From a virus: 25,275 nucleotides of DNA. The notes under the pieces were generated by a model. It saw nothing but the letters and a program-made list of their open reading frames with translations, searched no databases and was not told the DNA's origin. Location: positions 1 to 25,275 of the IMG/VR virus record IMGVR_UViG_3300043775_002220; one strand, given 5' to 3'. Position numbers and translations under genes: made by a program. Positions 2,582 through 24,734 of the stretch are shown here, piece by piece (within the stretch, counting starts at the first letter, position 1; each line of letters begins with the position of its first letter).

Positions 2582-3283
2582 ATGGCAACAAGAATATATA
2601 AATCCGACATTATTACATTAATGGATGGTGAACAGATAGAAATTTATCCTCTCAAGATTAAGTATCTTAGAGAGTTTATGGAAGCATTCCATTTAATAAA
2701 AGAATCAAAAAATGATCTTGAATCAATATCCTATTTATCAGAATGTGCAAGAATTGCTATGCAACAATATAAGCCAGAAATTGCAAAGACACTTGAAGAA
2801 CTTGAAGATCATGTAGACTTGCCTACAATATATAAAATAATTAATATTGGAGGAGGTATTAGCGTTAATGGAGAAGTAGATGAGCCAGTAAAAGAACAAG
2901 CACTAAAACAAGACACTATGGGTAGCGGTTGGGATGAATTAGATTTAGCAAAATTAGAATCTGAGATATTTTTGCTGGGTATATGGAAAGACTATCAAGA
3001 ATTAGAGGCAAACCTGTCAATGCCTGAATTAGTGGCAACCATTGGATCAATTAGAGATTTAGATTATCAAGAAAAGAAATTTCTTGCAGCAATTCAGGGT
3101 GTGGATTTAGACGGGGAAACAAATAAAGATAGAGGACAAAAAGAATGGGAAGACATGAAAGCCAGAGTATTTAGTGGTGGTCAAACCAGCGATAGCAATG
3201 ATGTATTATCTTTACAGGGTGTAAATGCACAAAAAGCAGGGTTTGGAATAGGAATGGGCCTAGATTACGAAGACCTAACATAA
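2582..3283 (+). CDS. Tail-assembly chaperone, long form (G+T type, in one frame)
   Basis: A 233-residue protein. Residues 1-95 are clearly paralogous to the next gene: by hand alignment about 43 of 95 positions are identical, including the shared blocks ITL-DG, PLKI, IAM-QYKPE and DLPT-Y. Residues about 115-233 form an extension (starting GWDELDLAKLESE, ending GFGIGMGLDYEDLT) of the sort that in other siphophages is the T part reached by ribosomal frameshift from gene G. Here both parts are joined in a single uninterrupted frame. Such proteins hold the tape measure protein in an assembly-competent state and recruit tube subunits. No ribosome-binding site precedes the ATG, and the predicted promoter would give a leaderless message. 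All six arginines use AGA. Confidence 0.7.
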   Translation: MATRIYKSDIITLMDGEQIEIYPLKIKYLREFMEAFHLIKESKNDLESISYLSECARIAMQQYKPEIAKTLEELEDHVDLPTIYKIINIGGGISVNGEVDEPVKEQALKQDTMGSGWDELDLAKLESEIFLLGIWKDYQELEANLSMPELVATIGSIRDLDYQEKKFLAAIQGVDLDGETNKDRGQKEWEDMKARVFSGGQTSDSNDVLSLQGVNAQKAGFGIGMGLDYEDLT

Positions 3284-3303
3284 TAGGCTGTTTATGCTAT
3301 AAT
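3275..3303 (+). promoter_or_regulatory. Predicted promoter for the short chaperone
   Basis: TGCTATAAT at 3295-3303 is a perfect extended -10. A partial -35, CTAACA (four of six bases of TTGACA), lies at 3275-3280 with a 17-base spacer. It overlaps the end of the long chaperone gene. The expected start near 3310 gives a leader of about 19 bases that carries GAGAGG (3318-3323) just before the ATG at 3329. It is better than the promoter in front of the long form, and unlike that one it feeds a normal ribosome site. Confidence 0.6.
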
Positions 3304-3328
3304 TGAGGTAACTTACTGAGAGGAAGTT

Positions 3329-3658
3329 ATGACTACAACAGTTCATGAAGAAAAAACAATTACCCTGATTGATGGAACAAAGATCAAGGTAAGACCTCTC
3401 AAGATCTCACTTTTGCGTAAATTTATGAAGAAGTTTGAGGGCTTGGGGGCAGTCCAAAATGATAACGATAAGTCTATGACACTTTTAATTGAGTGCGTAG
3501 CAATCGCTATGGAGCAGTATAAGCCAGAGTTGGGGGAAAGCATTGAAAAACTTGAGGATGTAATTGATCTTCCTACGGTTTATTCAATCATTGAGGCAGC
3601 ATCTGGAATTAATCTTTCAGATTCCGCTTTACTTGCTTTAGCACAAGAAGAACTATAA
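3329..3658 (+). CDS. Tail-assembly chaperone, short form (G type)
   Basis: A 109-residue protein that aligns over nearly its whole length with residues 1-95 of the preceding gene (shared PLKI, IAM-QYKPEL, DLPT-Y-II, about 45% identical by hand count). It ends in LLALAQEEL and has no T-like extension. In lambda-like phages the short protein (gpG) is made in large excess over the frameshifted gpGT. Here it is a separate gene with its own predicted promoter and a clear Shine-Dalgarno sequence, consistent with higher output. I looked for a way to shift out of frame near its end: the frame used by the tape measure gene has a stop at 3670-3672, so no fusion product is possible. It lies directly before the tape measure gene, as expected. 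Confidence 0.7.
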   Translation: MTTTVHEEKTITLIDGTKIKVRPLKISLLRKFMKKFEGLGAVQNDNDKSMTLLIECVAIAMEQYKPELGESIEKLEDVIDLPTVYSIIEAASGINLSDSALLALAQEEL

Positions 3659-3678: not shown

Positions 3679-6600
3679 ATGGCTGGAGATACAAATAGCA
3701 ATATTTTTATAAATATTGATACTTCACAAGCAATGGCGCAACTGCGCTTACTTGAGAAGGAACTAACAGCCCTTAACCGTTCCTTAATCGTTGGAACAAA
3801 GACTGCAGCAGCAGCGCAAGCAAAATACGCACAATCACTTCTACACAACGTAAATGCCACTGGTCAGTGGACAGCATCAATGACAAGAATGAGCACTGCC
3901 TCTGAGCAGTTTGCTACAAACCTAGATAGACAAAGACTATCACTTAAAGAATATTTTAGATATGGTGCAGCATCTACCAAGACATTTGGAAAGATGTTTG
4001 GTCGTGAGTTTGACACTATTGAAAAACTTGTAGATAAGCGTGTAAAGACTCTACAGCAACAGTATGTCCAATTAGGACGTGATGCCCAAGGTGCAATGAA
4101 CTCTATGAAGTTCACTCCAAAGTCATTAAACATGCAAAACTTAACTACACAGTTAATGATGGCAACGCAGCGTCAGCAAATAATGAATAAACTTATTGAT
4201 GATGGATCTACAAAACTTTTAAACTTTGGTAAAAATACACAGTGGGCAGGTCGCCAACTTATGGTTGGTTTTACAATTCCACTTATGCTTTTTGGCGCTC
4301 AGGCAATAAAGGTATTTAAAGAAATTGAAACACAAACTATTAGATTTAAAAAGGTTTACGGAGATATTTTTACAGATCAAGGAGCAACGGACGCTGCTTT
4401 AAAAAATATTCGTGCATTGGGAGATGAATATACAAAGTATGGACTTAAGGTTTCTGACACAATTAAGATGGCTGCAGATGCTGCAGCAGCAGGTTTTTCT
4501 GGCAAGGGATTAGAGCAACTTGTAGAGCAAACAAATAAACTTGCAGTGCTTGGTGGAGTTACACAAGAAAAAGCATTAGAGACAACGATTGCATTAAAGA
4601 ATGCTTTTCAGATTGATACTTCAGAAATGGCTGGAACAATTGATTTCCTTAACGCAGTAGAAAACCAAACAGTTGTAGCCCTTGAAGATTTAACAGAAGC
4701 AATACCAAAGGTTGCACCAGTTATTCAACAACTTGGTGGCGATGTAAAAGATTTAGCATACTTCATGGCTGCAATGCAAGAAGGTGGAATTTCTGCAGCG
4801 CAAGGTGCTAACGCACTTAAGTCAGGTCTTGCATCTTTAATTAATCCAAGTAATGCTGCATCTAAAGCAGCAGCAGCAGTTGGAGTTAACATTAAAGGAA
4901 TTGTTGAAGCCAACCAAGGAAACCTAAGAAACACAGTAACTGGATTTGCACAGGCACTACAACCACTCACTGATCTTGAGCGTTCAAGAGTTATTGAAAA
5001 GGTTTTTGGTAAGTATCAGTTTGCTAGAATTTCTGCACTCTTAAATAACTTAGGAAGAGAAGGAACTCAGGCTGCTCGTGTTCTGCAACTTACAAATGCA
5101 TCAGTAGAAGAACTTGCAATTTTAAGCCAACGAGAATTAAAGACTCAAGCAGATTCACCAATGAACAAGTTGGCAGCATCTATAGAAAAACTTAAGGTTT
5201 CTATTGCTCCAGTTGGAGAGTTGTTTGCTAAAGTATTTACTCCAGTAATTGAATTTATTGGAAAAATGGCTGACAAGTTTAATAATCTTCCAGAAGGAAT
5301 AAAGAAGGCTATTGGAATTATAACTGTTGTAGTTGGTGGATTAGGACCTATATTCTTAATGACGTTTGGCTTACTTGCAAATGCCGTTGCAAACTCAGTT
5401 AAGGGAATTCAGGTTCTTCGTAAAGGCTATCAGCAACTTGCAGCGGGATCAACTGATGCAGCATTAAAGACGCAATATTTATCACAAGAAGAATTAGAAA
5501 ACATTTCCATCAGTAATGCTCTTTATTCTAAGCATCAACAACTCTCTTCAGCATATGCACTAGAGGCAACAGCCCTAGCATCACTAACAAGTGTTTACTC
5601 TAAGGCCAACGCTTCTATGGGAGCCTTTGCAGCAAGCAATCCAGGAATGTTTATGCCTAGAGGAGGACTACTACTTCCAAAGAAGTTTGCGGGAGGAACA
5701 ACATCTGTTCCAGGACCAAAGGGAGCAGGGGATGTAATTCCAGCAATGCTATCACCTGGAGAGTCAGTTATTCCAGTAAAGCAAACACAAAAGTATTCAG
5801 GATTTATTAGTCAGATTATTCAGGACAAGGTTCCAGGATTTTTTGCTGGAAGAGTTGGAGCCTTACCGTCATCGCCAAATATTGTAAGAGGCTCATCTGC
5901 AAGAGGTCCTGTTGGACCCATGGCTCCAGTTATTCCAATTGGAGCAAGGCCAATTTCTTCTTCACTTCCTGGAATCAGGTATGCTCAAGAAGGAGACAAG
6001 GTTCGTATTTTTGCTGGTGACACATCTTTCTTAATTCCATTAAAAGATATTAGTACATTTAAAGTTAAACTTCAAGAAAACGAAGCATGGATGAAATCAC
6101 CAATCCATGGAAGTGGAAATAAAAATGTAAGAAAAGATAATACAGAACAAGCACTAATTAAAGCAATTACAAGACCACTAAGTGGAGGTAAAAAGCCTTC
6201 ACTACGTGAACAATCAGAAATTATTAAACCAGGAGACATATATACTCGTCTTCCAAAAGCAGGTGCACAAAGAAAGAGTAATCAAAATCAAGATATCGCA
6301 GATAAGAGATTTAAAGCATTAGTTAAATCAAAAAATCCTCATCTTGCAAAACTACAAAATTATTTACAAAATGAAGAAAAGGTTTATCTTGAAAGAGTAT
6401 TAGGTCCAGATGTTGTACAGTCTTTAAAGGGTTTTGATGCTAAGAAACTAACCCCAAGTCACATTAGAGAAGTGAGATCTCAGAATCGCACACCTGAAGA
6501 TTGGGCACCAAGTAAAATTGCAAGAGACTGGGCATGGTTTAACTCTGCACTAAGAGGAACTAAATTTGGAAAAGTTAAGGGTGGGCATCCAGTAAATGCT

Positions 6601-9600
6601 GCACAAGCAAGAGAACTTCTTGATAATCTAAAAATGACTCCATTTGAAAACCTTCCAAATGATAAAAAGGCTCTTCAAACTGTACTTGAATATAGATTAA
6701 ATCGCCAACCTTCATATTACGATGACTTTAGATTTATAGACAATGCAATGATGAAGGTTAATCCAGTAAAGTTGGCTGGTGGAGTTGTTTCTCTTGGAAT
6801 GCCAATTCCATTTAAAAAGGTACAAGCACAACGTGCAATGGCAGAAAAAATAGATGCACAAATTAAGGAAAGTAGATTTAAGAATCTTCCTGTTACAGAC
6901 ACTGGAAGAAAAATACAAAAACTTGGTGGATTTAGCGTTGGTTCAATTTCAAGAGCGGTCAATGGAGTTTATCAATTACCAAATGGTAGAACTGTAGTTT
7001 ACAAGGCTGTAGAAAGTGAAGAGGCTGCTTTAGCAGAAATGCGAATGTCTACCTTAATGAGAAAGGGTAGCGAACTTGATACTCCATCAAATCAATCAAT
7101 TAAGGTTATTGCAGATCCAACAGACTTAAGTAAACAAAGAAAAGTCCTTGTTATTGAATCAGACTATAACCCAAGATTTGCTAATCCAACTGGAGAGTTT
7201 ACACCAAAACAATTTATTAAACAAACCCTAGCCTCTGGTATTCGTGGAGATAAGGATCTTAAGACAGACAATGTTAGTGGTAACGATGTAGTAGATATGA
7301 GTAATGCTGGAGTATTCCCGACTGCATCAAATAGAGTTAAATATGCAGATGAGATGAAGTCAGTAGAAGAGCAACTTTTAATAAACTTTGGAGCAGTAAA
7401 GGGTGGAGCATCAAAAGACTTTTCAAGATCTGTTCAAGGAATTGCTGCAGAAATGGGTTTTACAAAATTTAAAAACGCAATGCTTAAAGAAATTGAAGAA
7501 TCTATTCCTAGATATAAAGCAACAATTGATACATTTAAGTTAAACCCAAGAGAAAGAGAACTTTACGATGCTGTAGTTGCTCGTTTAGAAGATGCTAAAA
7601 AAGCAGACTGGAAGAAGATTTACAATGCTGCTGTTGGTGATATTCCAGGATATGCAAATGGTATTGTTTCAGTTCCTGGTCCAAAGGGTGCTGGAGATAT
7701 TCAGCCTGCAATGCTTTCACCAGGTGAGGCCGTAATTCCTGCAAAACAATCTGAAAAGTATATGCCACTTATTCGTTCAATGATTGCAGACAATGTTCCT
7801 GGTTTTGCAGAATCAAATGTTGGGGGATTTGGAACTCCAGCCAGCCTAAGAGAAGGTGGAAAATATGCAGGAGCACCAGATGGTCGTGATCCCAGCGCAC
7901 CTCCATCAACTCCTCCTAACAGAAGAATGTCTCCAGACAGAGTTGAAAGAGCAATTGATAAAATATTTGATAACCCAAGAGTTAAAAAACTTGGGGACAG
8001 AATTGACAACTTTGCATCAAAATTAAGAACAGCGACACCAAAGGTTGCAGACTTAGGACAAACAGCAGATAAAACAACTGAGTCTTTTGGTAAAGATAAA
8101 ACTCGTGGATTCCGTGGATTTTTATCAGGTTACGGAAACGTATCTTCAACAGTTACAAATGAAGACGGAACAACAAGAGCAGCAACTGCTGCAGAGCGCA
8201 CCAATGCACGTCAAATGAACAGAATGAACTTTACACAAAAGATGATGCCTATGCAGATGGCTGGAATGATGATTCCAATGGCTGCAGGTATGGTTGCTCA
8301 AAAGAATCCAGATGGTGCTATAGCAAAGAACATGGATGCAATTATGATGCTATCTATGTTAACTATGCTTTTGCCAATGCTTAATAGTCCACTTAAATTA
8401 CTTGCAGCAACTGCAGTTGGACTTACTATTGTATTTAAAATGCAGGCAGCAACAATTAAAAAGAATATGATTGAAGGACAAAAGCAAGCAGAAGCAATGA
8501 GCATGACCACTAAGAATCTTGAAGAACTTGGAAAGATTACTAACAGAGTCTCTATAACTCAAACCGCTGCAGCAAAAAGAGCAGGAAGAAATACTGATCT
8601 TTCTCCAGTAAGTATGGACTTTGGAGCCAACCTTATATCTAGTAGCGAATTTGGTAAAAATCTTAAAAAATCATTCAACAATGCAATAGTAGACCTAGGA
8701 GAAGGAGCAGCAGTTAACTCACTGGTTAATCAACTAGGAACTGCAGTATCTCAGGGAGTTTTAAATTCAGAGCAAGCACAATCAATTGCAATTGCACTTA
8801 CAAGAGATTTAAAAGATGCAAGACTTGAGGTTAGTGTAAGAGGACGATTAATTCAACTTCTTGGTCCTAATGGAAAAAATGTTTTAGATAATCCACTACA
8901 GGTACAACTTGAATTAGTTACCACTGGAGAAAAGGTAGCACAGGCTGCAATTGAAAATCTTAATAAGGTTGCAAAACAACAAAAGGGTATTAATACTTTA
9001 GGAGAAGGCTTACAACTAGCAGCAGGTACAGCAGGCGGTGCTTTAATTGGAGCAAGAGCGGGAAGCCAAGCAGCAAGTATGGTTGCTGGACGAGGACTTA
9101 TTGCACAAGAAATGGCAATGACTGGCGCTAAGGGTGCAGGAGTTCTAGGCAGAGTAGCATCAGGAGTAAGAGTAGCACGAACTGCAGGACTTGTTGCTAG
9201 TGGAGCAGCAACGGCAACAGGAGTTGGAGCACCCTTTGGAGCAGTTGGTGCAGCAATTACAGCAGTTATTACTGGCGGTATTGATCTAGCAATTAGAAAC
9301 TGGCAAAAGGGTAAAGAAAAAGCAGTAATAGCAAAAGCAGCAGGTGTAGTTCAAGGACTTGTTTCACAAAACATAACTGCTTCACAAGGAAGTATAGACG
9401 CATTAACCTCAATCTTTGATACATCAATTGCAAATCTTGAGTTAAAGAAAAAAACTTTAAAGACAGACAAAGAACGAGCAGCAGTTGATTTAGAAATTGC
9501 TGGACTAGAATCTAAAAAGCAGTCTGGTTTGCAAACATTAAGACAAAAACAAGCAAAGATGCTTGCGGATGTTTCTTCAAACTATGATCAAGTTTCAGGT

Positions 9601-12600
9601 GCAGACCTTCTTGAAAAAATTAGTCCATTTGGTTCTGGCCGTGGACAAGTTCGTGATAAATATATGGAAGCATTTGCAGTTGGAATGCAAGATAAGTTTA
9701 AAGATAATGCACCACTTAAAGCACAGGCCGCTGCTCTTCAATCACAACTTGATCAGATTGGTAATGACAAGGTAACACTTGAGATTTCAACCTTGGTTAC
9801 TTCAGATGTTTTAACTCCTGGCGAGGCATCTGTATTGGTTAGCACTTTAACTAAGGCTGGCGGAGACATAAAGAAAAATCTAAATGCACTTGTTTCAGTT
9901 CAAGGAACAGAAGGCGTTCAAAGATTATCTACAATTCTCACAATGCTTCCAGATGAAGACAATCAAAAAAATCTTGTTCTTGCTGTTAGAAACCTAAACA
10001 AAGCAGATGCAGATGCAACATTTAGTTCAATAGAAGAACTTGGAAAAATTCCAGATTATATTGGAATTAAGTTAGAAATTGAAACAGAAAAGAGTGATCT
10101 GCCAAGAATTAAAGCACGAGGAAAAGAAATTGAAGCACTTAAAAAGCAATTCCCTAATGGACAAGTTACACTTAAGACTCTTGTTAAAATGCAAGAAGAG
10201 GCAGGTGGTGTTGGTAAAAACCTTACACTAGATTCTGCAATTAAGCAATGGAGCGAGATAAGTAAACTTGATAAGAATGTTCAACTTCAAGCAATCTTAA
10301 CTATTGGTTCTATTGAGTATAGCGATAGTTTTGATAAAATTTTAGATAGAGAATTAGAGGCAGACTTTTTAGAAAAAAATCCTAAATTCCGTGCAACTGC
10401 TGGAAGAAGCAGAACTGGTGAAAGACTATCAACTACAAAGATAGATCCAAAGGAAAAAGCAAAAGCCCTTGCAGAATTTAAAAAGAATGCAACAAATATA
10501 GAAAAAGCAAAAACAGAAGCACTGAATAAAATAAGAGACGAACTTTTCCCAAAAACACCTGTTAGTGGAGCGGTCGTTCCTGGTGCTACAACTCCAAAGG
10601 GTGATGGTCCAACAAGAGACGATTCATTCCTTAGTGATCTTGCTCAAAGACTTAAACTTATTAAAGAAGGTGGGTTTGATGCACTTAAGCCATTAGAATC
10701 TTTAAGAAAATTCCTTAAAGATGGTGGAAAAACTTCAATAAACCCAGGACTTGATGACCAACGTGGGGCAATCAAGCAAATAGAAGCAGCAGCAAAATCT
10801 GCTGGAATTGCTATTGATAAAGACTTTATGGAAATTATTAGAGGTTTAGACGCAGATCAGTTTGTTTTATGGTCAAAAACATTATTTGAAATAGGTAAAA
10901 ATGGAAGAATCACTGGTCTTAAAGATGACTTTGTAACCATTAACGAAGGATTCCGAAAAGCCACAATTGGTGGGTATATCCAAGATGTAAAAGATGCAAG
11001 TAAAGAAATTGAAAACCAAGTTGTTGCCCACAAAGTCTTAACACAAGAAGGATACAATTCACTTGAGATTCAAAAGATATTACAAGATGCAACCTTAACT
11101 GCAAAAATTGCAGCACAGGGTGGACTAAAAGCCACCAAGGAAGAGCAAGAAGAATTAAATAAAGAAATACAAAAAACTATTAATCTTAATTATGAACTAA
11201 GTAATATTAGACTTAATGATAATATTGAAGATACAAAAATGCAAGTTGAGGCATTTAAAAGACTTACTGCTGCTGGAGTAAAGCATGAAATTATTCTTGA
11301 AATATTAAAAGACAAAAACAACGCTTGGGCTATTGGGTCAGCCGATGCAACTGTAAATATTAAAGATAAGTTTGGCGACTTAATAGGAAAAACCAAAGAG
11401 TATTCTGATCTTCTTGAGTTAATTAGAAAGCAAACCCTTACATTTGAGCAAGCAACACAAGAAGCAATTGATGCTAACACTGCTGCACTTGATTTACAGG
11501 CTAGAACCTTCCAAAATCAGTTTGATATAAAAACATTTGAGTTAAAAGCAGAAATTAAAATAGCAGAAGATGCTGTTGAAAAAGTAAACAAAGATATTCA
11601 AGAAGAACAAGATAAGATTGATGATATTAATTTTGAACTTAAGTACGATTCAAAAATTGGTCAAAACCTTCTTGAAGATATTCAAGAAAACATTAACGAT
11701 GCTCAAAGAAAAATGGAAATTGATTTTGATAGACCTTTGCAGGCTTTATCTGATAGGTCAGCAGTATTGTCAAATGACCTAACATTAATTGATAAAGCCA
11801 CAGAAGCAATAAATGAAAAATACGATAAGCAAGAAGAGGCACTACGCACAATCTCTGAACTTAATCAAGATATTGCTGCACAAGAAAGAAGCCGTATTTC
11901 TCTTGCAGATGCCTTATCTCAAGGAGATATATCTGCAGCATCACAAATAGCAAACGAAATGCGCTCTACTGCTGCGGATGCAGCAAACCGTAGATCTGGA
12001 GATTTTATTTCAGAAGCAAGAAAGGCTGAAACAGAAGGGTTAGTTTCTGCAAGTGGTATGACAAGGGCACAAATTGAAGCAGAACAGTTTAGGATTAGTC
12101 AGCAGTCTTATGCTCTTGAACAACAAAGAAAAATAGCGCAGGAACAGATACTTGATCTAGAAGATCGAGTTTATGAAATAACAGAATTAAGAGAAGTTAA
12201 ACTTTTACAAATTAGAGATATTGAAACAATAATTGACGGTCTTAAGTCCGTTCAACTTGCTAAGGCTCAAGAAGAATTAGACAAACTTACTGCAAAACTT
12301 GCTGCTGAGCAAGCAATCCTAGACGCACAACTTGCTGGAATTGAAAAACAAAAACTAGCATGGGAATCAGTTCAGATCCAACTTGAAGCGTATAGACTTA
12401 AACTAAAAAGTATTATAGATGGTGAACTTACAAGTATGCTTGATATAATTAATAAGATTGCAGCAGCAATGGCAGGCCTTTCAGGATTTAATCCAAAAAG
12501 TCCGTATGTCCCACCAACAGGACCAAAGGGGGAAACTCCAGAAGAAAAAGCAGCAAGAGAAAAAAGAGAAAGAGAAGCCAAAGCAGCAGCAGACAAAGCA

Positions 12601-13545
12601 GCAGCAGACAAAGCAGCAGCAGACAAAGCAGCAGCAGAGGCACTGTTGGCTGCAGCAAAAACTGCAGCAGAAAAAGAAGCAGCAGAAAAAGCAATTGCAG
12701 CAGCAAAAGCCGCTGCAGAAAAAGCAGAGAGAGAGGCTGCGTATGTGGCAGCACTTGCAGCAGAAAAAGCAGCAAAAACTGCAGCAGAAAAAGCAGCAGC
12801 AGAAAAAGCAAAAGCAGATGCAGTAGCAAAATTTAATCCAACTGATTTAGCATCAAAAGAAAGTGGTGCAATTGGAGCAGCATCAATAGCAGCACAATTG
12901 ATTGCAGCAGAAAAGGCAGCCAAGGCAACAGCAGATGCAACTGCAGCAGCAAAAATTAATCCAACTGATTTAGCATCACAAGAAAGTGGTGCAATTGGAG
13001 CAGCATCAATAGCAGCACAAATTGCTGCAGCGAAGGCAGCAAAAGAAGCAATAGATGCAGCCTCACGTGCAGCAGCAGATGCAGCAGCAAATCAAGTTAA
13101 AGGCAAAACATCTGGAGGAAACTATTTTTCTGGCACTACTTACTATAGATCAAATGGTGGCTTAATTCCAAAATATTTTGCTTCAGGTGGAAAATCTATT
13201 GGTTCAGACACTGTTCCAGCAATGTTGACTCCTGGAGAGTTCGTAATGAATAAGTCAGCAACAAAGGCTTTTGGACCAATGCTTGCAGCAATGAATGGAT
13301 CTAAGTTCCCATCAATGTTGCAGAATGGCTTTACGGCACCTACATACCAGACATCTTCAACTAACATTATTGCTCCATCAAATATGTCAAATTCAAGTTC
13401 TGTAAACAACAACTCAAGTTCAGTGTATAATTATAATGTAGGAATTAGTGTTAACGGATCTAATCTAAACCCTCAAGATGTTGCAAGGGCAGTTATGACA
13501 CAGATTAAAAACGTTGATTCACAGAGAATTAGGACACAGAGGTAA
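3679..13545 (+). CDS. Tail tape measure protein (3288 residues)
   Basis: This protein sets tail length and is ejected with the DNA. Order of parts, by residue: hydrophobic segment about 192-212; TP901-type tape measure core about 230-480; membrane-like segment about 543-575; motif GAGDVIPAMLSPGE at 682-695; an insert of about 600 residues containing a kinase-like signature (1083-1215); a second copy of the motif near 1337-1350; Met-rich hydrophobic stretch about 1522-1594; Gly/Ala-rich segment about 1775-1872; long coiled coils about 2640-2935; Ala/Lys-rich low-complexity region about 2955-3135; third motif copy near 3175-3187; Ser/Asn-rich end closing with NPQDVARAVMTQIKNVD. At about 0.15 nm per residue it would predict a tail near 490 nm if all of it were extended; the folded insert would lower this. 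The ribosome site is weak (AAGG ten bases upstream), fitting a few copies per virion. It is much longer than lambda gpH (853 residues). Confidence 0.9.
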   Translation: MAGDTNSNIFINIDTSQAMAQLRLLEKELTALNRSLIVGTKTAAAAQAKYAQSLLHNVNATGQWTASMTRMSTASEQFATNLDRQRLSLKEYFRYGAASTKTFGKMFGREFDTIEKLVDKRVKTLQQQYVQLGRDAQGAMNSMKFTPKSLNMQNLTTQLMMATQRQQIMNKLIDDGSTKLLNFGKNTQWAGRQLMVGFTIPLMLFGAQAIKVFKEIETQTIRFKKVYGDIFTDQGATDAALKNIRALGDEYTKYGLKVSDTIKMAADAAAAGFSGKGLEQLVEQTNKLAVLGGVTQEKALETTIALKNAFQIDTSEMAGTIDFLNAVENQTVVALEDLTEAIPKVAPVIQQLGGDVKDLAYFMAAMQEGGISAAQGANALKSGLASLINPSNAASKAAAAVGVNIKGIVEANQGNLRNTVTGFAQALQPLTDLERSRVIEKVFGKYQFARISALLNNLGREGTQAARVLQLTNASVEELAILSQRELKTQADSPMNKLAASIEKLKVSIAPVGELFAKVFTPVIEFIGKMADKFNNLPEGIKKAIGIITVVVGGLGPIFLMTFGLLANAVANSVKGIQVLRKGYQQLAAGSTDAALKTQYLSQEELENISISNALYSKHQQLSSAYALEATALASLTSVYSKANASMGAFAASNPGMFMPRGGLLLPKKFAGGTTSVPGPKGAGDVIPAMLSPGESVIPVKQTQKYSGFISQIIQDKVPGFFAGRVGALPSSPNIVRGSSARGPVGPMAPVIPIGARPISSSLPGIRYAQEGDKVRIFAGDTSFLIPLKDISTFKVKLQENEAWMKSPIHGSGNKNVRKDNTEQALIKAITRPLSGGKKPSLREQSEIIKPGDIYTRLPKAGAQRKSNQNQDIADKRFKALVKSKNPHLAKLQNYLQNEEKVYLERVLGPDVVQSLKGFDAKKLTPSHIREVRSQNRTPEDWAPSKIARDWAWFNSALRGTKFGKVKGGHPVNAAQARELLDNLKMTPFENLPNDKKALQTVLEYRLNRQPSYYDDFRFIDNAMMKVNPVKLAGGVVSLGMPIPFKKVQAQRAMAEKIDAQIKESRFKNLPVTDTGRKIQKLGGFSVGSISRAVNGVYQLPNGRTVVYKAVESEEAALAEMRMSTLMRKGSELDTPSNQSIKVIADPTDLSKQRKVLVIESDYNPRFANPTGEFTPKQFIKQTLASGIRGDKDLKTDNVSGNDVVDMSNAGVFPTASNRVKYADEMKSVEEQLLINFGAVKGGASKDFSRSVQGIAAEMGFTKFKNAMLKEIEESIPRYKATIDTFKLNPRERELYDAVVARLEDAKKADWKKIYNAAVGDIPGYANGIVSVPGPKGAGDIQPAMLSPGEAVIPAKQSEKYMPLIRSMIADNVPGFAESNVGGFGTPASLREGGKYAGAPDGRDPSAPPSTPPNRRMSPDRVERAIDKIFDNPRVKKLGDRIDNFASKLRTATPKVADLGQTADKTTESFGKDKTRGFRGFLSGYGNVSSTVTNEDGTTRAATAAERTNARQMNRMNFTQKMMPMQMAGMMIPMAAGMVAQKNPDGAIAKNMDAIMMLSMLTMLLPMLNSPLKLLAATAVGLTIVFKMQAATIKKNMIEGQKQAEAMSMTTKNLEELGKITNRVSITQTAAAKRAGRNTDLSPVSMDFGANLISSSEFGKNLKKSFNNAIVDLGEGAAVNSLVNQLGTAVSQGVLNSEQAQSIAIALTRDLKDARLEVSVRGRLIQLLGPNGKNVLDNPLQVQLELVTTGEKVAQAAIENLNKVAKQQKGINTLGEGLQLAAGTAGGALIGARAGSQAASMVAGRGLIAQEMAMTGAKGAGVLGRVASGVRVARTAGLVASGAATATGVGAPFGAVGAAITAVITGGIDLAIRNWQKGKEKAVIAKAAGVVQGLVSQNITASQGSIDALTSIFDTSIANLELKKKTLKTDKERAAVDLEIAGLESKKQSGLQTLRQKQAKMLADVSSNYDQVSGADLLEKISPFGSGRGQVRDKYMEAFAVGMQDKFKDNAPLKAQAAALQSQLDQIGNDKVTLEISTLVTSDVLTPGEASVLVSTLTKAGGDIKKNLNALVSVQGTEGVQRLSTILTMLPDEDNQKNLVLAVRNLNKADADATFSSIEELGKIPDYIGIKLEIETEKSDLPRIKARGKEIEALKKQFPNGQVTLKTLVKMQEEAGGVGKNLTLDSAIKQWSEISKLDKNVQLQAILTIGSIEYSDSFDKILDRELEADFLEKNPKFRATAGRSRTGERLSTTKIDPKEKAKALAEFKKNATNIEKAKTEALNKIRDELFPKTPVSGAVVPGATTPKGDGPTRDDSFLSDLAQRLKLIKEGGFDALKPLESLRKFLKDGGKTSINPGLDDQRGAIKQIEAAAKSAGIAIDKDFMEIIRGLDADQFVLWSKTLFEIGKNGRITGLKDDFVTINEGFRKATIGGYIQDVKDASKEIENQVVAHKVLTQEGYNSLEIQKILQDATLTAKIAAQGGLKATKEEQEELNKEIQKTINLNYELSNIRLNDNIEDTKMQVEAFKRLTAAGVKHEIILEILKDKNNAWAIGSADATVNIKDKFGDLIGKTKEYSDLLELIRKQTLTFEQATQEAIDANTAALDLQARTFQNQFDIKTFELKAEIKIAEDAVEKVNKDIQEEQDKIDDINFELKYDSKIGQNLLEDIQENINDAQRKMEIDFDRPLQALSDRSAVLSNDLTLIDKATEAINEKYDKQEEALRTISELNQDIAAQERSRISLADALSQGDISAASQIANEMRSTAADAANRRSGDFISEARKAETEGLVSASGMTRAQIEAEQFRISQQSYALEQQRKIAQEQILDLEDRVYEITELREVKLLQIRDIETIIDGLKSVQLAKAQEELDKLTAKLAAEQAILDAQLAGIEKQKLAWESVQIQLEAYRLKLKSIIDGELTSMLDIINKIAAAMAGLSGFNPKSPYVPPTGPKGETPEEKAAREKREREAKAAADKAAADKAAADKAAAEALLAAAKTAAEKEAAEKAIAAAKAAAEKAEREAAYVAALAAEKAAKTAAEKAAAEKAKADAVAKFNPTDLASKESGAIGAASIAAQLIAAEKAAKATADATAAAKINPTDLASQESGAIGAASIAAQIAAAKAAKEAIDAASRAAADAAANQVKGKTSGGNYFSGTTYYRSNGGLIPKYFASGGKSIGSDTVPAMLTPGEFVMNKSATKAFGPMLAAMNGSKFPSMLQNGFTAPTYQTSSTNIIAPSNMSNSSSVNNNSSSVYNYNVGISVNGSNLNPQDVARAVMTQIKNVDSQRIRTQR
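5698..5820 (+). repeat. Tape measure motif copy 1 (Gly/Pro hinge with PAMLSPGE)
   Basis: Encodes residues about 674-720 of the tape measure protein: SVPGPKGAGDVIPAMLSPGE followed by SVIPVKQTQKYS. It is nearly the same as the segment at 7660-7782, where 27 of the first 32 or so residues agree. The DNA has drifted at third positions, so the two copies are old. A shorter version occurs at the C-terminus (13200-13260). Related PAML(S/T)PGE motifs are widespread in phage tape measure proteins; their role is not known to me. Confidence 0.75.
6922..7320 (+). other. Kinase-like signature inside the tape measure protein
   Basis: Residues 1083-1214 resemble a compact protein-kinase or PI3/4-kinase-like fold. 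A Gly-containing loop (GGFSVGS, 1083-1089) leads to a strand TVVYKA with Lys1109, then a helix with Glu1115 and Glu1120. A hinge-like strand VLVIESDY (1156-1163) follows. A catalytic-loop-like KDLKTDN (1192-1198) fits DxKxxN, and VVDMSNAG (1204-1211) stands where a metal-binding DFG-type Asp (D1206) would be. The gap between N1198 and D1206 is shorter than in typical Ser/Thr kinases, and DMS replaces DFG. What I see is the residues and their order; the fold and any activity are inference. It could also be a degenerate or structural domain. Confidence 0.35.
7660..7782 (+). repeat. Tape measure motif copy 2 (Gly/Pro hinge with PAMLSPGE)
   Basis: Encodes residues about 1328-1368: SVPGPKGAGDIQPAMLSPGE followed by AVIPAKQSEKY. 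It pairs with copy 1 at 5698-5820. The two copies bracket the insert that holds the kinase-like signature, which suggests that the insert, or the hinge with it, moved or duplicated as a module. Confidence 0.75.
12583..12627 (+). repeat. Three exact tandem copies of a 15-base unit in the tape measure gene
   Basis: The unit GCAGCAGCAGACAAA is present three times in a row and encodes AAADK repeats in the Ala/Lys-rich part of the tape measure protein. It keeps the reading frame and extends a helical low-complexity stretch. Recent expansion by slippage is the simple explanation. Confidence 0.85.
12835..13020 (+). repeat. Direct repeat of 63 bases (period 123) in the tape measure gene
   Basis: Copy 1 is 12835-12897 and copy 2 is 12958-13020. 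They differ at one base (AAA versus CAA, Lys to Gln). The period is 123 bases, or 41 residues, so the reading frame is kept. Each copy encodes NPTDLAS-ESGAIGAASIAAQ. The near identity at silent positions shows a recent duplication, a direct way for a tape measure, and so the tail, to grow. Confidence 0.9.
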
Positions 13546-20513: not shown

Positions 20514-20938
20514 TGCCTGATGCAAATATAAAAAAAGTTAGAATACCTAAATCATCTTTGCCTCCAATAGATAACGAAACTCTTGCATATAATCTTAGGT
20601 ATAGAATTATTTCCGAAGATAAAAACAGAACATCGCATTGGTCTCCTGTTTATAATGCAGATGGAATCTCAGTTGCTGGAACCTCTGGAGCACTTTCAAT
20701 AACTCAGACAATAATTACAGCGGTTTGGGGAGATGAAAACCTACACCCAGCATATGACGTATTTGTTAGTTTTGATGGAGATCCCTTTTATTGGCACGGT
20801 ACATCAGCAGTTCACTCATATTCATTTTTAAATGAAGGTTCAACAACCGTACGAGTAAAGGTTCAACTAGTATCATCTAAAAAAGTAATTAAAGCAGCGC
20901 TTAATATCTTTGACTCTGGAACAGAGTCTTTGGTATAA
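20513..20938 (+). CDS. Small beta-sandwich minor tail protein
   Basis: A 141-residue protein whose start shares one base with the previous stop (TAATG). The sequence looks like one fibronectin type III-like or Ig-like domain: LAYNLRYRIISEDKNRTSHWSPVY, then YDVFVSFDGDPFYWHGTS and TTVRVKVQLVSS, that is paired strands with a conserved-looking Trp before the turn. Such domains decorate tails and bind surface sugars weakly. The end of this gene carries the promoter for the next one. Function is inferred from position within the tail-tip cluster. Confidence 0.5.
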   Translation: MPDANIKKVRIPKSSLPPIDNETLAYNLRYRIISEDKNRTSHWSPVYNADGISVAGTSGALSITQTIITAVWGDENLHPAYDVFVSFDGDPFYWHGTSAVHSYSFLNEGSTTVRVKVQLVSSKKVIKAALNIFDSGTESLV

Positions 20939-20939
20939 T
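20910..20939 (+). promoter_or_regulatory. Predicted strong promoter for the small fibre-like gene
   Basis: TTGACT (20910-20915) is followed by an 18-base spacer and TATAAT (20934-20939), with the extended TG at 20931-20932. Five of six -35 bases and all -10 bases match consensus. It overlaps the last codons of the upstream gene. Expected start is near 20946, within the AGGAGG ribosome site, so the leader would be about ten bases. Confidence 0.65.
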
Positions 20940-20944
20940 TTAAT

Positions 20945-20950
20945 AGGAGG
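20945..20950 (+). promoter_or_regulatory. Consensus ribosome binding site (AGGAGG)
   Basis: A perfect AGGAGG six bases before the ATG at 20957. It is the best Shine-Dalgarno sequence noticed in the window and fixes the start of the gene. If transcription starts at the usual distance from the promoter above, the site may be partly cut off. In that case messages from further upstream, or a start a few bases earlier, would be needed to use it in full. Confidence 0.8.
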
Positions 20951-20956
20951 AAATAC

Positions 20957-21397
20957 ATGGCAAAAGTACCACTACCAGAAAGAGGTCAACCTCTTGATGT
21001 AACTTATATCTATCAGTTAGTTGAGGCTGTTAATGATTTATCTACCTCAATTTCTGATGCAACATACAATTACACAGATGTTGATGTTGTAGGTGCAGAT
21101 AAAAAGAGTTTAAAAACTTCAGAAACTAAGTTTGTTGCAAAATTTAAAAGAATTGCAGATGCAGAAACTGTAACAGCAGGTCAAGAAAAAGAATATTCAG
21201 TTCCATATTCTAATTTTAAATTTCCTCCAATTGTTACGGCATCTGTTGTTAATACAAGTGGAACAAGTGCAGGAACAAATACATCAGTAGTAATATCAAA
21301 AATATCTGCATCAGATGTAAGTTTTATTGTAAAATACGGAACATCTGGAACGGCATCTGTAGGTGTAAATATTATTGCTATTGGAGTTCCCAACTAA
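20957..21397 (+). CDS. Small tail-fibre-like protein, possibly lectin-type
   Basis: A 146-residue protein with a helical N-terminus (VTYIYQLVEAVNDLSTSI), able to trimerise, and a beta-rich Thr/Ser/Val C-terminal half (residues about 75-146). The pattern VPYSNFKFPPIVTASVVN, repeated Val/Ile strands, then IIAIGVPN resembles the short H-type lectin-like domains at the ends of some phage fibres. It is the last tail-type gene before the small regulatory and replication genes. It has its own near-consensus promoter and a perfect ribosome site, so it should be made in quantity. That is more than one would expect for a tip protein and might mean a decoration or multi-copy fibre role. Lectin assignment is inference from pattern only. 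Confidence 0.5.
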   Translation: MAKVPLPERGQPLDVTYIYQLVEAVNDLSTSISDATYNYTDVDVVGADKKSLKTSETKFVAKFKRIADAETVTAGQEKEYSVPYSNFKFPPIVTASVVNTSGTSAGTNTSVVISKISASDVSFIVKYGTSGTASVGVNIIAIGVPN

Positions 21398-22300: not shown

Positions 22301-22608
22301 TGGCTGAGCGCAAAGACCGAATGGCTTTGCTCAGTAGGTTTAACAAGTTTTACCTGCAGAGGTATGAGCAGAAGTCTAACATGAATCTAAACGTTGAGCA
22401 GTGGGCTGCTGATGCCCTTGTAGAGTCATATGGAATTGCTCAGTGCTACGACATTCTTGAATATTATTTTAGTATTGCACAAGAACCTTCATGGAATTAT
22501 TTTGCATATAATGCAGAAAAGATTATTAACGGAAAAGCAGAAGTAGAGCAAGACAAAAGAGAACGTGAAGAGCGAAGAAAATTAGCAAGGGAGTGGTTAA
22601 GTGAATAA
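22300..22608 (+). CDS. Unknown protein before the helicase gene; possible helicase loader
   Basis: A 102-residue, mostly helical, charged protein. It starts with MAERKDRMALLSRFNKFY, has a central WAADALVESYGIAQCYDILEYYF-type helix pair (residues about 35-60), then PSWNYFAYNAEKII, and ends in a very acidic/basic helix (KREREERRKLAREWL). It overlaps the helicase start by eight bases. Small helical proteins directly before a phage DnaB gene are often helicase loaders or helicase-binding factors; that is the only support for the suggestion. No nucleotide-binding motif is present, so it is not a DnaC-type ATPase. Confidence 0.5.
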   Translation: MAERKDRMALLSRFNKFYLQRYEQKSNMNLNVEQWAADALVESYGIAQCYDILEYYFSIAQEPSWNYFAYNAEKIINGKAEVEQDKREREERRKLAREWLSE

Positions 22609-23821
22609 TACAGAGGCAAAGTTAATTTCTGCAGTATTACAAGATAAACAAATTCACGTATTACTTCAAGCAAATGTTGAGACATTACTAAGAACGCACA
22701 ATGACGTATGGAATTTTATTCGTTTATATTCTGAAAATAATCAATGCCTACCACCAGCAGACCTAGTTACAGAAAAGTTTAGAGACTTTGAGCCTGTTCC
22801 TGGAATTGGAGCGACCAAGCATCATCTAGCAGAATTACAAACAGAATATCTTAACGATAGTCTAAAAGATATTTTACGTAATGCTGCAGGAGAAGTACAA
22901 AGCGGTAATGGTGGAGAAGCCCTTGAGCACTTGATTACAAAGACATCAGAGTTAAAAAAGAACACTTCTGCAATTCGTGATATCGATGCAACAGATCTTG
23001 AGTCTGCAGTTGCATACTACGAAATGGTTCAACAGCAACAGATTACTGGGCAGGTTGGAATTAAGACAAACCTTCCAGGTTTTGATAACTATCTTCCATC
23101 TGGAATTATGCCAGGACAGTTAGGTGTATTTCTTGCTTACCCAGGAATAGGTAAGTCTTGGATGGCTTTATACTTTGCAGTTCAAGCATGGAAGCAAGGC
23201 AAGTCACCACTTATTATTTCTCTTGAAATGTCTGAAACAGAAGTTCGTAATCGTATTTTTGCAATTATGGGTGAAGGTCTGTGGTCACATAGAAAGTTAT
23301 CTAACGGAGAAGTTGAGATTGACATGCTTAAGAAATGGCATGCTAACAAGGTTGCTGGTCGCCCAGAGTTTCATATTATCTCAAATGATAGTGGTGGAGA
23401 AGTAACTCCTTCCGTTATTCGTGGAAAGATTGATCAGTACCGTCCAGACTTTGTAGTTGTTGACTACCTCCAACTTATGTCTCCAAACCAAAAGGCTGAC
23501 TCTGAAACGGTACGAATGAAAAACCTTTCAAGAGAACTTAAACTAATGTCTATTGGTGAAGAAGTACCTATTATCGCTATCTCATCTGCAACACCAGATG
23601 ATGTAAAGGATCTATCAAGTCCTCCAACGCTTGGACAAACTGCTTGGTCTAGACAGATTGCCTATGATGCTGACTGGGTTATGGCACTTGGTCGTGCAAC
23701 TAATAGTGATATTATTGAATGTGTTTTTCGTAAGAATCGTAATGGGTTTATGGGCGACTTCTTAGTTCAGGTAGATTTTGACAAGGGATACTACAGGTAT
23801 AAAGACTATGAAGACAAGTAA
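22601..23821 (+). CDS. dnaB: Replicative DNA helicase, DnaB/RecA-fold
   Basis: A 406-residue ATP-driven hexameric helicase that unwinds DNA at the phage fork. GTG start at 22601 with GGGAG (22589-22593) upstream. Residues 1-100 form a helical N-terminal domain. The C-terminal RecA core has a Walker A AYPGIGKS (179-186), a signature ISLEMSETEVRNR (about 206-218), Walker B DFVVVDYLQLM (283-293) and, further on, the segment WSRQIAYDADWVM with an arginine in the position used for fingers in DnaB. It is slightly shorter than bacterial DnaB (about 450-470), mainly in the N-terminal domain. The primase gene overlaps its end by 14 bases, so the two are probably translated together. Confidence 0.88.
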   Translation: MNNTEAKLISAVLQDKQIHVLLQANVETLLRTHNDVWNFIRLYSENNQCLPPADLVTEKFRDFEPVPGIGATKHHLAELQTEYLNDSLKDILRNAAGEVQSGNGGEALEHLITKTSELKKNTSAIRDIDATDLESAVAYYEMVQQQQITGQVGIKTNLPGFDNYLPSGIMPGQLGVFLAYPGIGKSWMALYFAVQAWKQGKSPLIISLEMSETEVRNRIFAIMGEGLWSHRKLSNGEVEIDMLKKWHANKVAGRPEFHIISNDSGGEVTPSVIRGKIDQYRPDFVVVDYLQLMSPNQKADSETVRMKNLSRELKLMSIGEEVPIIAISSATPDDVKDLSSPPTLGQTAWSRQIAYDADWVMALGRATNSDIIECVFRKNRNGFMGDFLVQVDFDKGYYRYKDYEDK

Positions 23822-24734
23822 CATATATACACAAGAACAAATCAAACGTGTTCTTGTAGGTTCTGGAGTTGATATTGAAGCAGAGTTTGGAAACGACTTT
23901 ATAATTTTTTGTCCTTATCACAATAACAACAGAACACCTGCTGGGGAGGTTGCAAAGGATAGTGGATTATTCTTTTGCTTTGGTTGCCAGACAACAAAGA
24001 ACTTAGAAGAATTAATTATGCACATGTCTGGGCGAACATATTTTGAAGCAGTTCGCTATATTAAAAGTAAAGAGACAGAGCACGACATTGAAAAGTTAGT
24101 TAATAAAACATTGGTTGCACCACCAGAGTTTACTCCATATGATGAATTAATATTAAAGCGTTTGCATAACCAATTACTTGCAGATGAAAAGCCTAAGAAT
24201 TATCTTAAGTATAGAAAGATTAACAGTTCTTCATTTACAAAGTTTTCACTTGGCTACTCAGAAAAGCAAGACTCAATAACTATACCAATGCATTCACCAG
24301 ATGGTATGTGTCTTGGATTTGTTGCAAGAACAATTGAAGGCAAAGACTTTAAGAATACACCAGGATTACCAAAGGGTAAAATATTATTTAATCTGCACAG
24401 AATTAAATCATCTGGTACAGTATATGTAGTTGAATCATCCTTTGATGCTATTCGACTAGACCAAGTAGGTTTTCCAGCAGTTGCTACTCTGGGGGCTAAT
24501 GTATCTAATTCTCAAATTAGATTGTTAGAAAAGTACTTCACAAACGTTGTACTAATTGCAGATAACGATGAGGCTGGTAATATAATGAAAGATAAGTTAG
24601 TTGAAAAACTTGGATCTTTGGTTACTACTATCAGACTTGATAAAAAATACAAAGACATAGGTGATATGGAAGATGAAGAAATTAAGAACTTAGAGTTCCA
24701 GTTTGACAAATCTATATCTGCTATGCTAAACTAA
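23808..24734 (+). CDS. dnaG: DNA primase, DnaG-type with zinc finger and TOPRIM domain
   Basis: A 308-residue primase making RNA primers for the phage fork. The ATG at 23808 (N-terminus MKTSNIYT) is preferred over a TTG at 23778; it lies inside the end of the helicase gene. A CHC2-type zinc finger is seen as Cys35-x2-His38 and Cys57-x2-Cys60. The TOPRIM core shows the metal-binding glutamate in VVES (Glu209) and the Asp-x-Asp motif ADNDEAG (252-257). Compared with bacterial DnaG (about 600 residues) it lacks the long helicase-binding C-terminal domain, as is common in phage primases. Together with the helicase and the ssDNA-binding protein it forms a compact replication set. Confidence 0.87.
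   Translation: MKTSNIYTQEQIKRVLVGSGVDIEAEFGNDFIIFCPYHNNNRTPAGEVAKDSGLFFCFGCQTTKNLEELIMHMSGRTYFEAVRYIKSKETEHDIEKLVNKTLVAPPEFTPYDELILKRLHNQLLADEKPKNYLKYRKINSSSFTKFSLGYSEKQDSITIPMHSPDGMCLGFVARTIEGKDFKNTPGLPKGKILFNLHRIKSSGTVYVVESSFDAIRLDQVGFPAVATLGANVSNSQIRLLEKYFTNVVLIADNDEAGNIMKDKLVEKLGSLVTTIRLDKKYKDIGDMEDEEIKNLEFQFDKSISAMLN
24703..24732 (+). promoter_or_regulatory. Predicted promoter for the ssDNA-binding protein
   Basis: A perfect TTGACA (24703-24708), 18-base spacer and TAAACT (24727-24732) preceded by extended TG (24724-24725). It overlaps the last codons of the primase gene. The start near 24739 gives a leader of about 21 bases holding AAGGAG (24747-24752). The spacer length equals that of the promoter at 20910. 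It would let the ssDNA-binding protein be made above the helicase and primase. Confidence 0.55.

Follow-up and report, generated by a model that had tools for sequence, protein, structure and literature searches.

Separate genes for the G and GT tail assembly chaperones have probably replaced a programmed frameshift in a clade of long-tailed phages

Tailed phages offer a textbook example of conserved recoding, the −1 frameshift by which a single gene yields the tail assembly chaperones G and GT. The DNA analysed here (the window), a virus record of 25,275 bases (IMG/VR IMGVR_UViG_3300043775_002220), has two consecutive chaperone genes at the corresponding place, which raises the question of how its two chaperone forms are made and how this arrangement came about. 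An earlier note on the same DNA had proposed gene duplication in place of frameshifting. The reading that is favoured in this work, with a probability of about 0.8, is that the two genes encode the G and GT chaperones of a long-tailed phage separately, that one duplication replaced the −1 slip, and that expression sets the ratio of the two forms.

The expectations for such a pair come from two studied phages. In the available part of one source (PMC5009743), the lambda products are described as sharing a G part, to which the longer one adds T, the G:GT ratio of near 30:1 is called crucial, and the tape measure is reported to be bound by G and the major tail protein by T. Lambda makes both products from one start by −1 frameshifting, whereas the window has two genes. 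In phage TP901-1, according to a passage of another source (PMC4493119), a permanent gpG-gpT fusion results in particles that look intact but are non-infectious. Because of these findings, the window phage, too, should require unequal amounts of two forms, and, by analogy, its G would bind the tape measure and its T the tail tube protein.

Both ORFs were found exactly where the earlier note had placed them (2582–3283 and 3329–3658). Judging from the gene order and the annotation of relatives, they lie between the genes for the major tail protein and the tape measure protein, in the following arrangement:

1875–2513, + strand: major tail protein gene, the upstream neighbour (phrog_2175/phrog_885 matches; homologues annotated 'major tail protein')
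2529–2556, + strand: terminator-like hairpin and T run between the major tail protein and long genes (11-pair stem, 8 GC)
2569–2574, + strand: TAAAAT, a −10-like hexamer ending 7 nt before the ATG of the long gene, leaderless-type start
2582–3283, + strand: long tail assembly chaperone gene (putative GT form), 233 aa (phrog_10504 and phrog_10474)
about 2582–2869 and about 2930–3280, + strand: G-like part and T-like part of the long gene, with a linker between them
3298–3303, + strand: TATAAT of the predicted short gene promoter, with TG at 3295–3296
3320–3326, + strand: Shine-Dalgarno (SD) region GAGGAAG of the short gene (AGGA match)
3329–3658, + strand: short tail assembly chaperone gene (putative G form), 109 aa (phrog_10504)
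3679–13545, + strand: tape measure gene, the downstream neighbour (phrog_10030, E 8e-88; PF10145, E 9e-29)

The tape measure gene has 3288 codons in the window, and that of phage Sham spans 6312 bases. The translated product of the window gene, which is very long, contains three spaced copies of a motif like GPKGAGD.(I/Q)PAMLSPGE.VIP. On the same strand, 3' of the tail genes, DnaB-like helicase and primase genes are located at 22601–24734, and no tRNA genes were found in the window.

BLASTP analysis revealed that the long and short proteins are identical at 44 and positive at 69 of 97 aligned positions (E 1e-29), in agreement with the 43 of 95 positions counted by hand in the earlier note. Both proteins match phrog_10504 (E 2.2e-21 for the long and 1.1e-21 for the short one), and the long protein alone matches phrog_10474 (E 3.5e-14), through the T part in its second half. 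At the level of sequence, the pair thus comprises two products with a common N-terminal G part, the longer of which also has T, and these matches bear out the claim that the long gene holds G-like and T-like parts in one frame and that the short gene is G-like only. Searches of more general databases returned little: Pfam has no family for the long protein and gave one weak, unrelated name for the short one (E 0.13), only scattered weak names were obtained over 76 G proteins (Phage_TAC_19 in 1/76, E 0.036), and the sequence search of the PDB produced only chance matches at E 0.42 and above.

In the phage collection, the long protein matches 132 records, 127 of Streptomyces and five of Rhodococcus phages. 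When the short protein was used as a query, 127 records were matched at 127 places, i.e., no second G copy was found in this collection at the sensitivity of the search. In all of the 11 phage records inspected, one gene occupies the G position and T comes after it in the −1 frame; four of them (Sham, Francesca, Yaboi and NiceHouse) carry the annotation of a joined 'tail assembly chaperone'. The Stanwilliamsviridae, which infect Streptomyces, and the related Rhodococcus phages share with the window homologous G and T between the major tail protein and the tape measure, but differ from it in having one G gene, a −1 frame T and, in most subgroups, a slippery heptamer. The T part of the long gene corresponds to the −1 frame T of these frameshifting relatives; in an alignment of eight sequences, the window T and that of the Streptomyces phages have 32 invariant columns. 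The short protein, in turn, ends in a manner similar to G in the 0 frame (window LSDSALLALAQEEL, Sham LNDPNLLAMAQEAL / LNDPNLLAMAQEALGRS). As the same two parts constitute one gene plus a −1 frame in the Stanwilliamsviridae and Rhodococcus phages, the G-like and T-like identity of the parts is supported, and each copy appears to retain one product of the old single gene.

In the structural comparison suggested by the earlier note, the model of the short protein (pLDDT 73.6) consists of a hairpin plus helices and has a named tail assembly chaperone as its best match in BFVD (E 3e-7). Its resemblance to the HK97 chaperone (2ob9) is weak (Z 4.3, rmsd 5.2, 84 aligned) and tied with unrelated rows. 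The long protein model has a pLDDT of 76.7, highest in the G part, and neither model had any Foldseek match against the PDB at E 0.001.

In order to place the pair among its relatives, five viral-contig scans, one genome-contig scan and eleven phage records were drawn upon, which yielded 409 loci in addition to the window. Only the best 80 were kept per scan, the first of which had at least 598 relatives, so the counts given here are no measure of abundance. Out of the 410 sources, 299 have the two-gene form and 94 the −1 frameshift form. The other 17 comprise eight fused genes cut by the contig end, six loci without T, two Rhodococcus loci without a recognised G, and L368, in which the short gene (6417–6751) extends over two frames, owing either to a sequencing error or to a real break. 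One locus, L001, is the window again and was dropped from all counts. Since the loci overlap, the number of distinct G..T DNA sequences is the fairer figure: among the best 80 per scan there are 260 of these, 197 two-gene and 63 frameshift. All of the two-gene sequences come from IMG/VR contigs, and none from isolate records. Several related contigs have lengths of 105–110 kb. No source among the 410 contains two T frames, and no locus of intermediate form was seen.

Within the best 80 IMG/VR loci plus the window, both genes are present in 78 of 81, all with T in the frame of G as one closed ORF, so the gene order is shared by relatives. The remaining three loci (L002, L023 and L057) end before a second gene would be visible, and in six of the 78 (L009, L012, L014, L033, L069 and L075) the second gene runs past the contig end. 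The genome-contig scan found a single relative, L253 (CAINGU010000031.1), a contig of 109,918 bases with a frameshift-type relative of the tail module. It belongs to a MAG labelled as a cyanobacterium, but may be of phage origin and have ended up there through binning.

A canonical heptamer is present in the overlap of 49 of the 63 frameshift sequences (CCCAAAT in 15, GGGAAAC in 15, CCCAAAC in 11, CCCAAAA in six, AAATTTG and GGGAAAA in one each). The 14 sequences without one include three named Streptomyces phages, and several of the overlaps contain CCCGGAA. The Boydwoodruffvirinae-type relatives (L083, L084, L089, L097 and L102) are of this kind, with CCCGGAA at the matching place. The slippery site has also changed within one family: the group that is sister to the two-gene sequences in the trees described below has GGGAAAC in all of its 15 sequences (L110, L254, L257, L260, L272, L334, L344 and eight more), and the other frameshift relatives mostly have CCCAAAN (32/48).

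The direction of change was examined in four-gene trees of 876 columns, in which the major tail protein and the beginning of the tape measure were combined with two proteins encoded upstream. Throughout the tree work, only loci with long-enough markers were used, in two sets (231 loci, clustered to 89; 204 of the 260 sequences, clustered to 96). The 92-row four-gene tree was made after L087, L205, L189, L193, L188 and L184 had been dropped and L334 and L195 added, and the bootstrapped 46-row tree was built from every one of the 22 frameshift rows and from 24 of the two-gene rows, of which there were 70. The two-gene rows form one clade (98 in the 92-row tree, 100/100 in the 46-row tree), the sister of which is a frameshifting clade (99 and 99/99). 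As the more distant rows are all of the frameshift type, a single switch from the frameshift to the two-gene form suffices. Together with the census of gene architectures, these trees uphold the proposal of the earlier note that duplication took the place of frameshifting, and it is most likely, as far as the sequences tell, that this replacement occurred once.

Trees of single genes are less simple. In those of the major tail protein (210 columns) and T (125 columns), part of the sister group is nested inside the two-gene clade. In the trees of G (the first of which was made without L205 and L112), the long genes form one clade (98 in the first tree, 94 in the second), and the short genes form one clade in the second (84) and include one long-branched sister row in the first. 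The single genes of the sister group join the short genes, with the long genes outside (96 to 99). These topologies, and the GGGAAAC heptamer that sets the sisters apart from the other frameshift relatives, suggest a reversion, in which the duplication would predate the split from the sisters, and the sisters would have lost the long copy and returned to frameshifting (frameshift to two genes to frameshift). The four-gene trees, preferred for their length and support, do not uphold it, as they place the sister group outside the two-gene clade. The long stem of the long genes may be pulled towards the outgroup, and a clade of long plus short genes is not rejected (p-AU 0.46); the outside position of the long genes is explained if the long copy changed fast after a single duplication. 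With no intermediate locus seen among the 410 sources, the reversion is retained as an unlikely course of events.

The earlier note had assigned a promoter of its own to each gene. The consensus scan of the window confirmed this for the short gene (CTAACA-17-TATAAT, 10/12, preceded by TG) and detected no promoter for the long one, but the comparison of relatives supports a promoter-like element in front of both. For these counts, the start of the long gene was placed in 195 of the 197 two-gene sequences. A TANNNT hexamer lies 5–12 nt before it in 192/195 (24% in shuffles), and an SD of at least 4 nt was found in 0/195 (15% in shuffles). Upstream of the short gene, TATAAT is present in 195/197 sequences, mostly 23–30 nt before the start, and an SD of at least 4 nt in 196/197. 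TGN stands 5' of the TATAAT of the short gene in 194/195 and of the hexamer of the long gene in 168/192. With its −10-like hexamer just before the start (192/195) and no SD (0/195), the long gene is predicted to be of the leaderless type. A −10 element that adjoins the start without an SD is the pattern of leaderless genes in actinobacteria. In the window, an SD of at least 4 nt is absent from six of the 16 genes examined, and the hexamer at 5–12 nt occurs in the long gene alone.

The start signals of the frameshifting relatives resemble those of the short gene: an SD is present in 15/15 sisters and 47/48 others, and the near hexamer (5–12 nt) in 0/15 and 1/48, respectively. The hairpin before the long gene was found by a strict test in 31/194 two-gene relatives, as compared with 0/194 shuffles. 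Elsewhere in the tail region of the window, TATAAT followed by AGGAGG within 20912–20956, before the ORF that starts at 20957, may be a further internal promoter.

Codon usage was compared by means of CAI, for which the major tail protein genes from 182 two-gene sequences served as the reference. Median values in the two-gene set are 0.622 for the short gene, 0.463 for the G part and 0.498 for the T part of the long gene, 0.548 for the start of the tape measure and about 0.50 for two upstream genes. The short gene exceeds the long G part in 175/180 sequences and in 69/70 representatives; in the window itself the gap is small (0.568 versus 0.527). Codon adaptation is thus high in the short and low in the long gene, paralleling G and T of the frameshifting relatives (0.629 and 0.457 in the sisters, 0.614 and 0.506 in the others).

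Both genes are under purifying selection, with dN/dS by sums over 254 pairs of 0.131 for the short gene and 0.089 and 0.075 for the two long parts. The pairs were picked according to how far the long genes had diverged at synonymous sites, and in a few cases the contig ends within the short gene. Over the same pairs, the median dS of the short gene is 0.18, about one third of that of the long gene (0.58 and 0.73 for its two parts), a difference that could stem from strong codon selection or from recombination.

It could be supposed that the short gene is a paralog with a new role, e.g., a chaperone for another stretch of a very long tape measure, and that the long gene alone does the work of G and GT. 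The length of the window tape measure (3288 aa) next to that of Sham and the divergence of the long and short proteins to about 45% identity would fit this explanation. It is made improbable, even more so than a reversion, by the short protein having kept the 0-frame end of G and by the ancestral-type start signals and G-like codon usage of its gene, as well as by the loss of infectivity that, in the part of the source cited above, accompanies the permanent fusion in TP901-1 (PMC4493119).

Concerning recoding, T in the window is in the frame of G, and not in a separate frame with a slippery site in an overlap. Neither the G/T junction of the long gene nor the short gene contains a canonical X_XXY_YYZ heptamer. 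The long gene has a single such site, AAAAAAT at 2707, which falls within its G part and is followed by a −1 frame stop at 2713. Among the two-gene sequences, 173/197 long junctions and 177/197 short tails are without a canonical heptamer. In dnaX, a slip ends the product early. That one of the genes is still recoded in a comparable manner, an early-ending slip in the long gene adding to the G pool, is considered very improbable: besides AAAAAAT at 2707 it could appeal to the 24/197 long junctions (and 20/197 short tails have some heptamer as well), but the junction heptamers are of several kinds and are missing from all the other junctions, and a −1 frame from 2707 would end after about 43 residues, well within G.

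The replacement of the slip by one duplication, the reading preferred here, may be pictured as follows. The ancestor would have had one gene with a programmed −1 frameshift, making G and, by slippage, G-T. This gene would have been duplicated once; one copy would have become the permanent in-frame G-T fusion (the long gene), and the other would have lost T, retaining the 0-frame end of G together with an ancestral-type leader, TATAAT and SD (the short gene). The slippery site would not have been retained, and control of the G:GT ratio would have moved from slippage to expression. The short gene would depend on a TGN-TATAAT promoter together with an SD start, and the promoter of the long gene would end at the start codon, so that its mRNA would be leaderless and its output low. 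Because of the conserved start signals and the codon usage, we infer that the ratio is now set by transcription and initiation, i.e., by leaderless versus SD-led starts from separate promoters, and the same signals point to a leaderless long mRNA and a matching ratio of long to short protein. Taken as a whole, a single duplication that gave a short gene with an SD-led start and well-adapted codons and a long gene with poor codons and a leaderless start, the latter doing the work of the sisters' slippage and fixing G:GT, is likely, at a somewhat lower level of confidence than the duplication reading given at the outset.

Two-gene chaperones have been described before. According to a passage of one source (PMC10885494), which cites Vladimirov et al. 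2022, some T4-like phages possess a short chaperone gene plus a longer, fused one; the window, with a short and a fused long gene instead of a frameshift, corresponds to the definition in that passage. The same work is cited in part of another source (PMC12846349) for a slippery poly-T in T4-like chaperone genes, and the precedent may therefore hold for only part of the T4-like phages. T4 gp26 and gp51 are paralogs (E 2e-6) located on opposite strands. We take them to be the short and fused long chaperones of the T4-like report, and hhalign found no match between the G profile and these two proteins as single sequences (probability about 1%). In Microbacterium cluster EA phages (EA1 and others), two chaperone ORFs are apparently expressed separately with no evident frameshift, as described in passages of two sources (PMC7302621, PMC11659878). 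In the literature searched, with most subscription papers outside its scope, no report was found of the present clade or of a leaderless GT gene. The kind of arrangement is known; not found in that literature were this clade, a transition from frameshifting that is placed on a tree, and two modes of initiation divided between the genes.

For annotation, the finding means that consecutive chaperone genes are not necessarily a missed frameshift. For the biology of these phages, the switch from recoding to a gene pair can be located on a tree, next to close relatives that still frameshift, and this makes it testable whether selection keeps the slip itself, the coupling between the products, or nothing more than their ratio. 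The pattern of high G and low GT appears to have been re-created by codon usage and start signals after the slip, which points to the ratio as what is kept.
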